Of a stretch of 64,000 nucleotides of DNA, positions 47,398 through 52,818 are shown one piece after another (within the stretch, counting starts at the first letter, position 1; each line of letters opens with the position of its first letter). Made by a program: the position numbers and the translations under genes. Source of the stretch: Chloroflexota bacterium (lineage in GTDB: Bacteria; Chloroflexota; Dehalococcoidia; SM23-28-2; RBG-16-64-32); assembly GCA_029262695.1 (NCBI GenBank), contig JAJCYV010000004.1, positions 66,807-130,806 of the forward strand, in the 5' to 3' direction. The notes beneath the pieces are model-generated. The model did no database searches. It was not told the origin of the DNA and saw nothing but the letters and a program-made list of their open reading frames with translations.

Positions 47398-48408
47398 TTG
47401 CAGCCTCCGGCTGCCCTCACCCGCTACCGGCGGGCGCTGGACGAGCACCTCCGTAGCCTCGTAGACCGCCCTCAACCGCACGATCTCTATCGCATGCTGC
47501 GCTACCATCTCGGCTGGGAAGACGCCGAAGGGCGCCCCGCCGAGAGCACCGGCAAACGTCTGCGCCCAGCGCTCTGCCTCCTCGCCTGCGAAGCCGCCGG
47601 AGGCCAGGCAGAGCGCGCCATTCCGTTCGCTTCGGCTGTAGAACTCGTCCACAACTTCTCGCTCGTCCACGACGACGTGCAGGACGGAGACCGCCTCCGC
47701 CACGGCCGTGACACGGTGTGGTCGGTCTGGGGCAAGTCGCAGGCGATCAACGCCGGCGATGCGCTCCTCGCCCTGGCGCATATTGCGCTTGCCGAAACCC
47801 CCCACGAGTCGACTGCTGCCGCCTCCCGGCTGCTCAACGAGCTGACGCTGGAGATGGTCGAAGGGCAGGTGATGGACATCGCCTTCGAGGAGCAGACCGA
47901 CGTCTCACTCGACGCCTACCTGGCGATGATCTCGCGCAAGACCGGCGCCCTCTTCGACGCCGCGCTCGCACTCGGCGCGGTCGCAGCCGGCGCCCCGGCC
48001 GAGATGGTCGCGGCGCTCGGGCGCTGCGGCCGGCAGCTAGGGCTCGCCTTCCAGGTGCGCGACGACATGCTCGGCATCTGGGGCGACGTGGACCGCACCG
48101 GGAAGCCCGTCGCCGCCGACATCCACCGCCGCAAGAAGTCACTTCCCATCGTCTTCGCACTCGAGCGCGCTGAAGGCGACGACCTGGAGCGCCTCCAGGG
48201 AATGTACGGCGCGGGCGAACCATCGGCCGGCGACGTCGCTTTCGTAGTCGGCCTGTTGGACTCGCTCGGAGCGCAGGCGTACTCTCAGGAGGAAGCGGAC
48301 AGGCACCGCACCGCCGCGTTGAGCGAGTTGACCGACGCTGACCTCGACGAGCGCGCGGCTGCTGAGATACGGGAAGTCGCGGACTTCTTGCTCGAAAGAG
48401 ACTTCTAA
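47398..48408 (+). CDS. Polyprenyl (farnesyl/geranylgeranyl) diphosphate synthase
   Basis: This 336-residue isoprenoid chain-elongation enzyme would supply farnesyl diphosphate to HpnD. The first Asp-rich motif is FSLVHDDVQDGD (about 85-96). The second is FQVRDDMLGIWGD (about 217-229), the form found in many actinobacterial-type synthases. GKRLRPALCLLACEA is the N-terminal substrate region. The start is TTG at 47398, right after the YjbQ stop. Chain length cannot be assigned by eye. Confidence 0.92.
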   Translation: MQPPAALTRYRRALDEHLRSLVDRPQPHDLYRMLRYHLGWEDAEGRPAESTGKRLRPALCLLACEAAGGQAERAIPFASAVELVHNFSLVHDDVQDGDRLRHGRDTVWSVWGKSQAINAGDALLALAHIALAETPHESTAAASRLLNELTLEMVEGQVMDIAFEEQTDVSLDAYLAMISRKTGALFDAALALGAVAAGAPAEMVAALGRCGRQLGLAFQVRDDMLGIWGDVDRTGKPVAADIHRRKKSLPIVFALERAEGDDLERLQGMYGAGEPSAGDVAFVVGLLDSLGAQAYSQEEADRHRTAALSELTDADLDERAAAEIREVADFLLERDF

Positions 48409-48417
48409 GGAGGCGGC

Positions 48418-49533
48418 ATGCCGGGAAGGCCGTTGGGGTTGTCGCTAAGACTGGGCTGGTATCTCCTCCAGCAGAAGATCAGGGGGCGGGAGCGCTTTCC
48501 CCTGACCATGATCCTTGAGCCGCTGGAGGAGTGTAACCTCACCTGCACCGGCTGCGGCCGCATCCGCGAGTACGAGCCGATCATTGAGCGCAAGCTCACC
48601 GTAAAGCAGTGCCTCGCCGCAGTCGAAGAGTGCAACGCGCCCGTCGTCTCGATCGCTGGTGGCGAGCCGCTGATGCATCCGGCGATCGGCGAGATCGTTG
48701 CCCGCATCGTGAAGCAGAAGCGCTACGTATACCTCTGCACGAACGCGCTCCTCTACCGGCAAGCGCTTCGCCAGATCGAGCCGTCGCCGTACCTCTCCTT
48801 CGTCGTCCACCTGGACGGCCTGCGCGAGACTCACGACATCGCCGTGGAGCGCAAGGGTGTTTACGCCGTCGCGATCAAGGCGATCGAGGCCTTCCGCGAA
48901 GCCGGTCACCGCGTCTGCACCAACACGACGCTCTTCAGCGGTAACCAGCCCGAGGAGTATCACCGGCTGTTCGCGATGCTCAACGACATGGGCGTCGAAG
49001 GGATGATGGTCTCGCCCGGCTTCCAGTACGAAGAGGTTGCGCATCACGACATCTTCCTCCAGCGCGAAGAGGCGCGCTCTTTCTTCCGCCGTGTCTTCGA
49101 AGGCTGCCGAGACAGCGTGCGCTTTTATCACAACCCGCTATACCTCGATTTCCTCATCGGCGCCCGACAGTACGAGTGCACGCAGTGGGGCACGCCGACC
49201 TACACGCCCGCAGGCTGGCGCAAGCCGTGCTATCTCATCGCCGACGAGCACGTGACGACTTTCGGCCAGCTGATGGAGACCGACTGGAAGGCCTACGGCC
49301 GGGGCAACGACCCGCGTTGCGACACCTGCATGATGCACTGCGGCTACGAGGGCTCCGCGATCCAGGAGGCGATGTCCAGCCCGCGCGCCTTCATCGAGAT
49401 GGTCCGCCGCTCGTCGAAGCCCGGCGTCGCGAAGAAGGCGCGTGAGCTGGAGCGGGCGGCCCCGCCGGCGACCGACGCTCCGGAACGTAAGGTGCCCAGC
49501 CTGACCGGCAGCGGGCGGGAGCGGCGCCAGTGA
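48418..49533 (+). CDS. hpnH: Adenosyl-hopene transferase HpnH (radical SAM)
   Basis: HpnH is a radical-SAM enzyme that adds the 5'-deoxyadenosyl group to diploptene at the start of bacteriohopanetetrol side-chain synthesis. The cluster motif CNLTCTGCGR is at about residues 40-49. SIAGGEPLMH (about 77-86) and the C-terminal Cys-rich segment CDTCMMHCGYEG fit HpnH. The length of 371 residues is near the family norm. AAGGAGG lies before ATG 48418. Its stop overlaps the hpnG start (GTGA). Confidence 0.95.
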   Translation: MPGRPLGLSLRLGWYLLQQKIRGRERFPLTMILEPLEECNLTCTGCGRIREYEPIIERKLTVKQCLAAVEECNAPVVSIAGGEPLMHPAIGEIVARIVKQKRYVYLCTNALLYRQALRQIEPSPYLSFVVHLDGLRETHDIAVERKGVYAVAIKAIEAFREAGHRVCTNTTLFSGNQPEEYHRLFAMLNDMGVEGMMVSPGFQYEEVAHHDIFLQREEARSFFRRVFEGCRDSVRFYHNPLYLDFLIGARQYECTQWGTPTYTPAGWRKPCYLIADEHVTTFGQLMETDWKAYGRGNDPRCDTCMMHCGYEGSAIQEAMSSPRAFIEMVRRSSKPGVAKKARELERAAPPATDAPERKVPSLTGSGRERRQ

Positions 49534-50276
49534 TCCTCGTCTTCGCGGCGATGGAGCCTGAGGTCCGGGCCTGCTTCGGCGGCGGCTCCATCGTCCCGCC
49601 CCGCGAAATCGCAGGCTTTCCGGTCTACGAGGCTAACGAGCTCGCCGTCTGCCAGACGGGCCTCGGTCGCCGCTCCCACGACGCTGCGACCGCAGTGATG
49701 GAGCACTTCACGCCGGAGGCCGTGCTATCGGTCGGAACGGCCGGCGGCCTCAACTTCGATCTGCGCTCCGGGCAGCTCTTCGCCTGCTCACACGTACACC
49801 ACGCCGACATGCGTGGTGGCCTGGACGAGACGCCGGCGTTCTCTGACGAGCGGCTCGTGACGCTGGCGCTCGAGGTCGCCCGCGGCGCCGGGATCGAAGC
49901 GAGGATCGGCTCTGCCGTAACAGTCGATGAGGTCGTCTGGACATCCACCGACAAGGCAGATCTCCACGCCTGGATGCAGCACGACGTCGTCGAGATGGAG
50001 AGCTACTGGATCGGCAAGGTCGCCAGTCAGGCCGACCTGCCGTACCTGGCGCTGCGCGTCGTCACGGACCAGGCCGCCGATGAGCTTGTTCAGACGCCGG
50101 CGATCACCGCGGACGGCACGTTCGACGCGGACGCGTTCCAGGCCTGGATCAAGGATCATCCGGAATACATCCCGATGTTCGCCGAACAAGCGGAGCGCTC
50201 GCGGCGGGGCCTCGGTACCCTCACGCGGTTCCTGAGCGACTTCCTGCCGCGGCTCGCCGACACGCAAATCTCATGA
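49530..50276 (+). CDS. hpnG: Adenosylhopane nucleosidase/phosphorylase HpnG
   Basis: HpnG removes adenine from adenosylhopane, giving the ribosyl-hopane side chain. The 248 residues have a nucleoside-phosphorylase fold: VCQTGLGRRSHDAATAVME, VLSVGTAGGLNFDLRSG (about 71-87), and VVEMESYWIGKVA (about 152-164), where the MEs motif binds the nucleoside. The start is GTG at 49530, overlapping hpnH. The stop overlaps shc by 4 nt. Confidence 0.92.
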   Translation: MILVFAAMEPEVRACFGGGSIVPPREIAGFPVYEANELAVCQTGLGRRSHDAATAVMEHFTPEAVLSVGTAGGLNFDLRSGQLFACSHVHHADMRGGLDETPAFSDERLVTLALEVARGAGIEARIGSAVTVDEVVWTSTDKADLHAWMQHDVVEMESYWIGKVASQADLPYLALRVVTDQAADELVQTPAITADGTFDADAFQAWIKDHPEYIPMFAEQAERSRRGLGTLTRFLSDFLPRLADTQIS

Positions 50277-52219
50277 GCACCTCTCGCGGGGCGCTGGACG
50301 AAGCGATCCGGCGGACGCAGGACTACTTCCTCCGCACGCAGCACCCGTCGGGCTACTGGCTCGGCGATCTCGACTCAAACGTCTGTATGGCGGCGCAGTA
50401 CCTGCTGCTCACTCACTTCCTCGGCGTCGGCGATGATGGACTCCCGGATGGGCGCCGGCGCAAAGTCGCGAACTACCTGCGCCGCGAGCAGCGCGCGGAC
50501 GGGACGTGGGCGATCTACCCCGGCGGCCTGCCGGACCTCAACGCTACGGTCGAGTCTTACTTCGCGCTCAAGCTCGCCGGCGTATCGCCCGACGACCCGG
50601 CGATGGCCCGCGCCCGCGAGTGGGTACTCGCGGCCGGCGGCGTGCCGAAGGTGCGCGTGTTTACGAAGATCTGGCTCGCGCTCTTCGGTCAGTGGGACTG
50701 GCGGGGCGTTCCTGTCCTGCCGCCGGAGATGATCCTGCTTCCGCGCTGGGCCCCACTCAACATCTACGACTTCGCGGCCTGGGCGCGGGCGACGATCGTG
50801 CCGATGCTGATCATCCTCAGCGAGCGCCCGACGTGCCCGGTGCCCGACTCTGCCCGCATCGACGAACTGTTCCCGGGCGGACGCGAAGGTACGGACTACA
50901 GCCTTCCCACACCGCAGGACTCGCGCTGGGGCACCTTCTTCCACCGCGCCGATGGCCTGCTCCGCCGCGCCGAGTCACTTCTCTTCCGAGGGTCAGGCTT
51001 CAGCCTGACGCCGGCCCGTTCTACCCGGGAGGCAGCCTATCGCGCGGCTGAGGACTGGATCGTTGCTCATCAGGAGGCCGATGGGACCTGGGCCGGTATC
51101 CAGCCGCCGTGGGTGTACTCGCTCATCGCGCTCAAGGTCCGTGGCTATCCGCTCGACCATCCGGTGATGAGGCGCGGCCTCGAGGCGTTCGAGGCCGGCT
51201 GGGCGATCGAAGACGACGAGACGTTCAACCCGCAGGCCTGCGTATCGCCGGTCTGGGACACAGTGCTGGCGATGAACGCGCTGCTCGACTCCGGCCTGGC
51301 GCCAGACCACCCGGCTCTCGTGCACGCGGCTCAGTGGTTGCTGGGCAAGCAGGTGCTGACTGCCGGCGACTGGCAGATCGGCGCGCCCGGCGTTGAACCG
51401 GGAGGCTGGTCTTTCGAGTTCGAGAACGACTTCTACCCCGACACCGACGACACGGCCGAGGCCCTGATCGCGCTCTCCCGTGTGCGCCTGCCGGACGAGC
51501 GACACAAGGACGAGGCGGTCGAACGTGGCCGTCGCTGGCTGATCGGCATGCAGTCGGCCAACGGCGGCTGGGGCGCATTCGACCGTGACAACACCCGCCG
51601 GATGGTGAGCAAGATACCGTTCTGCGACTTCGGTGAAGTGATCGACCCGCCATCGGAAGACGTTACCGCGCACGTGATCGAAGCGCTCGCCCTCGTTGGC
51701 GATGGCGGCTCCGGGGTGGTGCGGCGGGGTCTGCGCTACCTGCGACGCCAGCACCGGGCGGACGGGAGCTGGTTTGGCCGCTGGGGCGTGAACTACGTCG
51801 CTGGCACGGGCAGCGTGCTACCGGCGTTCAAGGCGGCCGGGTGCGACATGACGAAGCGGCGCTTCCGGCGGGCCGCCGGCTGGCTCACCGGCAGCCAGAA
51901 CGCGGACGGCGGCTGGGGTGAGGACCCGCGCAGCTACGTCGACGAGTCGTGGGCGGGCCGCGGCGACAGCACGCCATCACAGACGGCCTGGGGCATGGCC
52001 GGCCTTCTCGCCGTCGATGGAGACGGCGCGATCGCCGATTCGCTGGAACGAGGCGCGCAGTGGCTGATCGAGCGTCAGGAGGAGGACGGGCAGTGGCTGG
52101 AGCCGCAGTTCACGGCCACCGGGTTCCCGGGCGACTTCTACCTCAAGTACGATCTATACCGGAACTACTGGCCGCTGCTGACGCTTGGCCGCTATCGTGA
52201 CGCGTTAGGCCCGGCCTAG
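50273..52219 (+). CDS. shc: Squalene-hopene cyclase
   Basis: This cyclase folds squalene into hopene at the membrane. The 648 residues contain the catalytic DTDD motif (Asp390-Asp393) and many QW repeats, such as QRADGTW, QSANGGWGAF, QHRADGSW and QNADGGWGED. A 29-nt palindromic repeat (50984-51012) lies in frame and encodes about residues 238-246 (RGSGFSLTP), in a linker between repeats. Translation is coupled to hpnG (ATGA). The stop TAG shares bases with the convergent selW-like stop. Confidence 0.96.
   Translation: MSTSRGALDEAIRRTQDYFLRTQHPSGYWLGDLDSNVCMAAQYLLLTHFLGVGDDGLPDGRRRKVANYLRREQRADGTWAIYPGGLPDLNATVESYFALKLAGVSPDDPAMARAREWVLAAGGVPKVRVFTKIWLALFGQWDWRGVPVLPPEMILLPRWAPLNIYDFAAWARATIVPMLIILSERPTCPVPDSARIDELFPGGREGTDYSLPTPQDSRWGTFFHRADGLLRRAESLLFRGSGFSLTPARSTREAAYRAAEDWIVAHQEADGTWAGIQPPWVYSLIALKVRGYPLDHPVMRRGLEAFEAGWAIEDDETFNPQACVSPVWDTVLAMNALLDSGLAPDHPALVHAAQWLLGKQVLTAGDWQIGAPGVEPGGWSFEFENDFYPDTDDTAEALIALSRVRLPDERHKDEAVERGRRWLIGMQSANGGWGAFDRDNTRRMVSKIPFCDFGEVIDPPSEDVTAHVIEALALVGDGGSGVVRRGLRYLRRQHRADGSWFGRWGVNYVAGTGSVLPAFKAAGCDMTKRRFRRAAGWLTGSQNADGGWGEDPRSYVDESWAGRGDSTPSQTAWGMAGLLAVDGDGAIADSLERGAQWLIERQEEDGQWLEPQFTATGFPGDFYLKYDLYRNYWPLLTLGRYRDALGPA
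50984..51012. repeat. 29-nt palindromic repeat, copy 1 (inside shc)
   Basis: The core is GTCAGGCT-TC-AGCCTGAC, a perfect 8-bp palindromic stem. The 29 nt are identical to 58266-58294. It is in frame in the cyclase gene. Confidence 0.9.
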
Positions 52220-52506
52220 GCGCCGGCTTCCTTGGCTTCGATCAGCTCCCAGATCTGCTTCTTGATCTCGCGGATGCGCTCCATCTCCGGGTAGATGCCG
52301 CCCTCCGCCTTGCGGTCGAAGAGCGCCTTGCCGTCGGCGTACAGCGTCAGCTTGCCCTTGTCGCCGGGGATCAGCGTCACCGGGGCGTTGGCACCGAGTT
52401 CGTGCCAGATCTCGGTCGCCATCCAGGCGGCCATGGGAAGGTACCCTCACGGGACGCAGTACGTGATCTCGATCGCGATCCGGCCGTCGTATCGTCCTTC
52501 GATCAA
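52216..52506 (-). CDS. SelW/Rdx-family selenoprotein with in-frame TGA (CxxU)
   Basis: The reverse strand from TTG 52506 reads 96 codons with one in-frame TGA at 52449-52447. Read as selenocysteine (residue 20), it gives IEITYCVPU-GYLPMAAW, the redox motif of the Rdx (SelT/SelW/SelH) family, with Cys17 and Sec20. The rest (VTLIPGDKGKLTLYADGK, FDRKAEGGIYPE) also matches the family. AGGAG lies 6 nt before the TTG. A GC-rich hairpin with loop UGGAU starts 14 nt after the TGA. Standard gene calling would start at ATG 52434 and lose the redox motif. It follows the DUF59 gene by 9 nt. Confidence 0.78.
52414..52432 (-). promoter_or_regulatory. Candidate bacterial SECIS hairpin
   Basis: On the reverse strand GGCCGCC pairs with GGCGACC (one C-A mismatch) around loop TGGAT. 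The loop begins 21 nt after the TGA and has G among its first two bases, which fits the geometry known for bacterial SECIS elements. Confidence 0.55.
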
Positions 52507-52515
52507 AGCAGTCTC

Positions 52516-52818
52516 CTAGTCCAGGCCGAGGTCCGCCCGCGCCTCGTCCGTCATCTTCTCCGGGTTCCACGGAGGGTCGAACGTGAACTCGACGTCGACG
52601 TCAGTCACGCCCGGCATGAGGCTGAGGAGCTCCTGTATCTGCTCCGTGATCATTGGCCCAATCGGGCACATCGGCGTCGTCAGCGTCATCATGATCTTCA
52701 CCGCGCGGTCCTCGTCGATACGGATGTCGTAAATGAGGCCGAGGTCGTAGATGTTGTAGTGCAGCTCCGGGTCGTAGATCTCCCGCAGCCCCTCGACGAT
52801 GTCGGCTTCAGTTACCAC
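52516..52818 (-). CDS. DUF59/MIP18-family metal-sulfur cluster assembly protein
   Basis: This 100-residue DUF59 protein (SufT/PaaD-like) is of the type involved in iron-sulfur cluster assembly or delivery. Conserved segments are REIYDPELHYNIYDLGLIYDI (cut: DPELHYNIYDLGLIY, about 16-30), MTLTTPMCPIGPMI (about 44-57) with the conserved Cys, and VTDVDVEFTFDPPW (about 71-84). The start is GTG 52818 with a GGAGGAGTGAGGAG region upstream, and TACAAT (52844-52839) may be the -10. The selenoprotein-like gene follows 9 nt downstream. Confidence 0.9.
   Translation of the reverse strand: MVTEADIVEGLREIYDPELHYNIYDLGLIYDIRIDEDRAVKIMMTLTTPMCPIGPMITEQIQELLSLMPGVTDVDVEFTFDPPWNPEKMTDEARADLGLD

Follow-up and report, generated by a model that had tools for sequence, protein, structure and literature searches.

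The gene that concerns us here lies on the minus strand of the window (the whole 64-kb stretch of DNA that was analysed), directly behind a gene for a DUF59-type protein and tail to tail with a hopanoid gene cluster on the plus strand. Its annotated features, and those of its upstream neighbour, are the following.

52516..52818, minus strand: DUF59/MIP18-type SUF-associated protein (PF01883, by Pfam match), directly upstream of selW; the two are adjacent in 16 of 16 same-order loci
52513..52517, minus strand: AGGAG ribosome-binding site, 6-nt spacer to the TTG, with an overlap with the stop codon of the DUF59 gene; AGGAG or AGGGG in same-genus relatives
52216..52506, minus strand: selW-like gene (Rdx family), 96 aa if TGA is Sec, motif C17-V-P-U20; based on the translation, PF10262 and TGA-bearing orthologues
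52504..52506, minus strand: start codon TTG; GTG in the same spot in three same-genus relatives
52447..52449, minus strand: in-frame TGA, Sec codon 20; kept in orthologues of the same order and, among named genomes, in 39 of 40 homologues
52414..52432, minus strand: SECIS hairpin, stem 52432-52426 with 52420-52414 and one C-A mismatch, loop UGGAU 52425-52421; based on bSECIS fit, covariation and synonymous-site invariance
52216..52434, minus strand: truncated 72-aa ORF from ATG 52434, the ordinary gene-caller output; not the real gene start, the ATG being unconserved

The initial annotation had proposed that the reading frame extends upstream past the TGA at 52449 to a TTG preceded by AGGAG, and all of its coordinates were verified. 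With TGA written as U, the N-terminal part translates as LIEGRYDGRIAIEITYCVPUGYLPMAAWMATEIW..., so that bridging the TGA does restore the family motif as CVPU, with TGC at 52458-52456 as the Cys17 codon; the frame closes at a TAG stop codon (52218-52216). The selW-like gene and the squalene-hopene cyclase gene on the plus strand are convergent, and their stop codons overlap in a common CTAG at 52216-52219. The cyclase belongs to a hopanoid cluster (47398-52219, plus strand) that comprises a polyprenyl-synthase-like ORF, HpnH, a nucleoside-phosphorylase-like ORF and squalene-hopene cyclase, in which the nucleoside-phosphorylase-like ORF occupies the place of HpnG, as a candidate only; the same gene order is found in the relatives L052-L054, L059, L060, L067 and L068.

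The predicted product matches the Rdx family (PF10262) over residues 12-81 with 53.7 bits, against a Pfam gathering cut-off of 22.6. Its scores against two narrower NCBIfam models, TIGR02174 (CXXU_selWTH; 31.8 bits, curated cut-off 34.2) and NF041051 (SelTWH_Campy; 51 bits, curated cut-off 88), fall short, as for a diverged branch, and the protein is therefore not assigned to either. A profile built from 23 homologues retrieves the solved SelW-related proteins 2fa8, 2ojl, 2p0g, 3dex, 2obk and 2oka together with mouse SelW. In an AlphaFold model (pLDDT 88, pTM 0.79) the CxxU motif (C17-V-P-U20) sits between the first strand (residues 12-17) and the first helix (residues 23-40), and the top structural matches of the model are SelW-related proteins (TM ∼0.74, rmsd ∼1.4, 28-35% identity, E 1e-7). 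The predicted fold is thus the thioredoxin-like fold of SelW, in agreement with SelW crystal structures. The same fold, at that TM and identity, is shared with the Cys-type SelW-related structures 2fa8, 2obk, 2oka, 2p0g, 2ojl and 3dex, whereas in the window protein the second motif position is occupied by Sec. Mouse selenoprotein W (2npb), the mammalian representative, is likewise a CxxU thioredoxin-like protein and matches the model with TM 0.67 and 18% identity.

The extent of this fold bears on whether the UGA might act mainly as a selenium sensor, switching between termination and read-through, with the Sec protein of secondary importance. The argument for such a switch comes from general knowledge alone, namely that Sec insertion and release factor 2 compete at such a UGA; however, the part of the protein encoded beyond the TGA shows strong conservation and bears the other half of the fold, and the next downstream gene is convergent, which leaves nothing to control by coupling. 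We consider a primary sensor role very improbable, and a Sec-containing protein as the main product of the gene remains our reading.

A stem-loop with a UGGAU loop, 21 nt after the TGA and of the bacterial SECIS type, had also been claimed from the sequence. Published limits of the bacterial SECIS model are a loop of 3-9 nt, a stem of 4-16 bp, a G among the first two loop positions, a distance of 16-37 nt from the UGA and a minimum free energy (MFE) of at most -7.5 kcal/mol (PMC13188914). The hairpin in the window, with the stem GG.CGCC / GGCG.CC and a loop that begins 21 nt past the TGA, falls within these limits, and it covaries among relatives, which bears out the claim. It shares with the bSECIS consensus model (PMC13188914, Fig. 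2A) the 5-nt loop with G second, the 21-nt distance from the UGA and an MFE below -7.5, but differs in having a stem of six pairs with one mismatch, and its SAR202-type relatives pair in another register. An Rfam gathering scan of the 64-kb window returned no matches. The fold energy of the single sequence was considered as SECIS evidence and rejected: the MFE of -14.1 kcal/mol against a shuffled mean of -13.1 (z = -0.41) is ordinary for GC-rich DNA. Because the folding energy is unremarkable, the hairpin is proven solely by comparative evidence; some of the stem pairs are, besides, forced by the protein motif A-A-W-M-A.

That comparative evidence consists of two tests that do discriminate. 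Four fourfold-degenerate stem codons (GCC GCC ... GCG ACC) are invariant in 20 distinct near relatives wherever the residue is kept, compared with 0 of 24 conserved, fourfold or sixfold degenerate codons elsewhere in the gene (range 0.40-0.94). Among 26 distinct sequences, four stem pairs have changed on both sides, giving 10 such cells, against a shuffled mean of 0.9, with none of 500 shuffles as high and slid controls far lower; pair 21-33 is seen as C-G, G-C, U-A and A-U, and pair 24-30 as C-G, U-A and G-C. L069-L071 have an Ile codon (ATA or ATC) in place of the Met codon, a change that preserves the loop-closing pair. In the SAR202-type sequences (L075-L090) the stem register is shifted, with a pair sum of 51 or 48 versus 54 and weak covariation support, and L065 is able to form both registers. 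Judged from these alignments, the hairpin after the TGA is a constrained and covarying SECIS.

Conservation of the TGA itself was followed across increasing distances. A match to the protein is present in 30 of 61 related genomes, the window's own counted in, and the 16 best loci, all of the same order and again including the window's own, each contain exactly one TGA within the match; in every same-order locus whose DNA was read, it is located at the CxxU position. The in-frame TGA occurs in three same-genus genomes (85-86% identity) and in 12 further same-order genomes (54-67% identity), while TGA and Cys codons are mixed among more distant homologues. Named species-representative genomes were scanned as well and gave 40 homologues, of which 39 have TGA at the Sec position and one, L091, from an unclassified bacterium, is a Cys form; in L085 the Tyr codon before the TGA position contains an N. 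The 39 are labelled Chloroflexi/Chloroflexota, Dehalococcoidia or SAR202 with a single exception, L074 (SXND01000232.1), whose 5.2-kb contig carries the label Proteobacteria; this TGA-type SelW falls inside the Chloroflexota clade and points to either a misbinned contig or a transfer. Homologues with Cys at residue 20, which the initial annotation had suggested looking for, do exist, for example YCVPC in L038, and on its contig C22 the window's own genome encodes a second homologue, a Cys form that has diverged (YCTKC). Cys-type and TGA-type SelW paralogues stand in tandem at L122 (G202:C1, 1139 and 1477) and L121 (G127:C121), which represent two distinct families within the class. In a tree of Sec and Cys forms, based on few columns and unrooted, the label is clustered. 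No relatives of the selW-like gene were found in the viral collection.

These comparisons decide whether the locus might be a pseudogene or a sequencing or assembly error, in which the TGA would have arisen by nonsense mutation or from miscalling of a TGC, and just the 72-aa ORF, or nothing, would be made. Such a reading could account for the frame opened at ATG 52434 (52434-52432), which lacks the active-site motif. That ATG is unconserved, however, being replaced by GTG or CTN in 10 of 12 sequences inspected; synonymous sites are constrained past the TGA; and dozens of assemblies made independently have the same TGA in an otherwise intact frame, even where protein identity has dropped to ∼35-40%. 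Since the TGA is conserved across so many assemblies we exclude a pseudogene or error, to which we give hardly any credence, and the claim that the TGA is genuine rather than a slip for TGC is upheld by its presence in the 15 closest same-order relatives.

A genuine Sec codon predicts a Sec machinery, and the four genes expected in the genome, selA, selB, selD and tRNA-Sec, were all found: selA on contig C36 (541 bits), selB on contig C11 (614 aa, 292 bits, with the SECIS-binding winged-helix domains SelB-wing_2 and wing_3), selD, in Cys form, on contig C4 (368 bits) and tRNA-Sec on contig C41 (78 bits, anticodon UCA by ARAGORN). Genome-wide reassignment of TGA, for instance to Trp or Gly and with selenocysteine uninvolved, would equally let an in-frame TGA be read through, but it is excluded because ordinary genes end in TGA (the HpnH, nucleoside-phosphorylase-like and HerA-like genes of the window, and selA and selB), a dedicated tRNA-Sec and the Sec enzymes are encoded in the genome, and homologues carry Cys at position 20, so that we rate its probability as next to nil. 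Across the class, 45 of 197 genomes have a SelW match that contains an internal TGA, the TGA position having been read in DNA for a subset of the 45 and the remainder resting on the in-match stop count only. A selA above the curated cut-off accompanies it in 39 of these 45, versus 86 of the 152 others (one-sided Fisher p = 1e-4). Two TGA-type genomes (G173 and G183) have weak or partial selA matches, and no selA was found in four of the 45, G008, G033 and G039 (78-85% complete) and G154 (92% complete), where missing contigs probably account for its absence.

We conclude that the locus is almost certainly a genuine gene for a SELENOW-like (Rdx, CxxU) selenoprotein of an uncultured Chloroflexota bacterium, in which UGA codon 20 is decoded as Sec. 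The gene, its conserved UGA, the constrained covarying hairpin, the full Sec gene set and, by prediction, the fold are established. Bacteria decode Sec by means of SelA and SelD, which produce Sec-tRNA-Sec, and of SelB, which binds both this tRNA and a hairpin; Sec is then incorporated at UGA by the ribosome. By the same route, SelB would here deliver Sec-tRNA(UCA) to UGA codon 20, guided by the SECIS hairpin 21 nt downstream within the coding sequence, and the product would be a thioredoxin-like protein of 96 residues in which Cys17 and Sec20 form a redox pair. That Sec is actually inserted at this UGA, and that the genome reads UGA as selenocysteine as first proposed, we infer from the Sec gene set, the Cys at residue 20 in homologues and the bSECIS-compatible, covarying hairpin. 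The biochemical role would be a thiol/selenenylsulfide redox cycle, in which the CxxU pair probably alternates between reduced and selenenylsulfide states with a thiol partner.

The gene neighbourhood offers a possible clue to that role. The DUF59 gene and selW probably form a bicistron, and in most same-order loci the downstream convergent gene is squalene-hopene cyclase or polyprenyl-synthase-like, with L037 stopping at a contig edge. No DUF59 match lies beside selW in L055, L057, L062, L065 or the SAR202-type loci, where neighbours vary. A conserved partner gene outside the order was sought and rejected, as the neighbours there differ (glycerate kinase, MaoC-like, pentapeptide repeats), and because of these differences the DUF59 link is lineage-specific. 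A functional tie of SelW to Fe-S cluster assembly is a possibility for this order only, and the DUF59 neighbour is the sole hint of it. It is doubtful, in our view, that one can go as far as a Sec-form SelW that is the dedicated redox partner of the adjacent SUF/DUF59 Fe-S maturation in this order, combined with a class-wide shift of SECIS register with function kept, the RNA element driving the Met to Ile change at the loop-closing base.

SELENOW-like CxxU proteins with a UGA and a SECIS have been described in bacteria (PMC1794560, PMC1088965), and the window gene shares with this long-catalogued family (PF10262; PMC1794560, PMC1088965, PMC2398784, PMC13188914) the Rdx domain, the CxxU motif, UGA as Sec and a SECIS just downstream within the coding sequence. 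It differs from the known members in adjoining DUF59 and in having a UGGAU loop that is formed by the Trp and Met codons within a conserved AAWMA motif. From eukaryotic genes, such as that of mammalian SelW, it differs in the position of the SECIS, which in eukaryotes lies in the 3′ untranslated region. What is new here is the example in a Chloroflexota/Dehalococcoidia lineage; in the open-access text searched, neither Chloroflexota nor SAR202 was linked to SelW. The finding indicates that Sec decoding is widespread in Dehalococcoidia and SAR202-type Chloroflexota, and such Chloroflexota may contribute some of the SelW-like selenoproteins that predominate in marine metagenomes. On a practical level, automated annotation of these genomes will skip or shorten the selW-like gene, and the covarying stem provides, within one orthologous gene, a compact set of natural SECIS variants.
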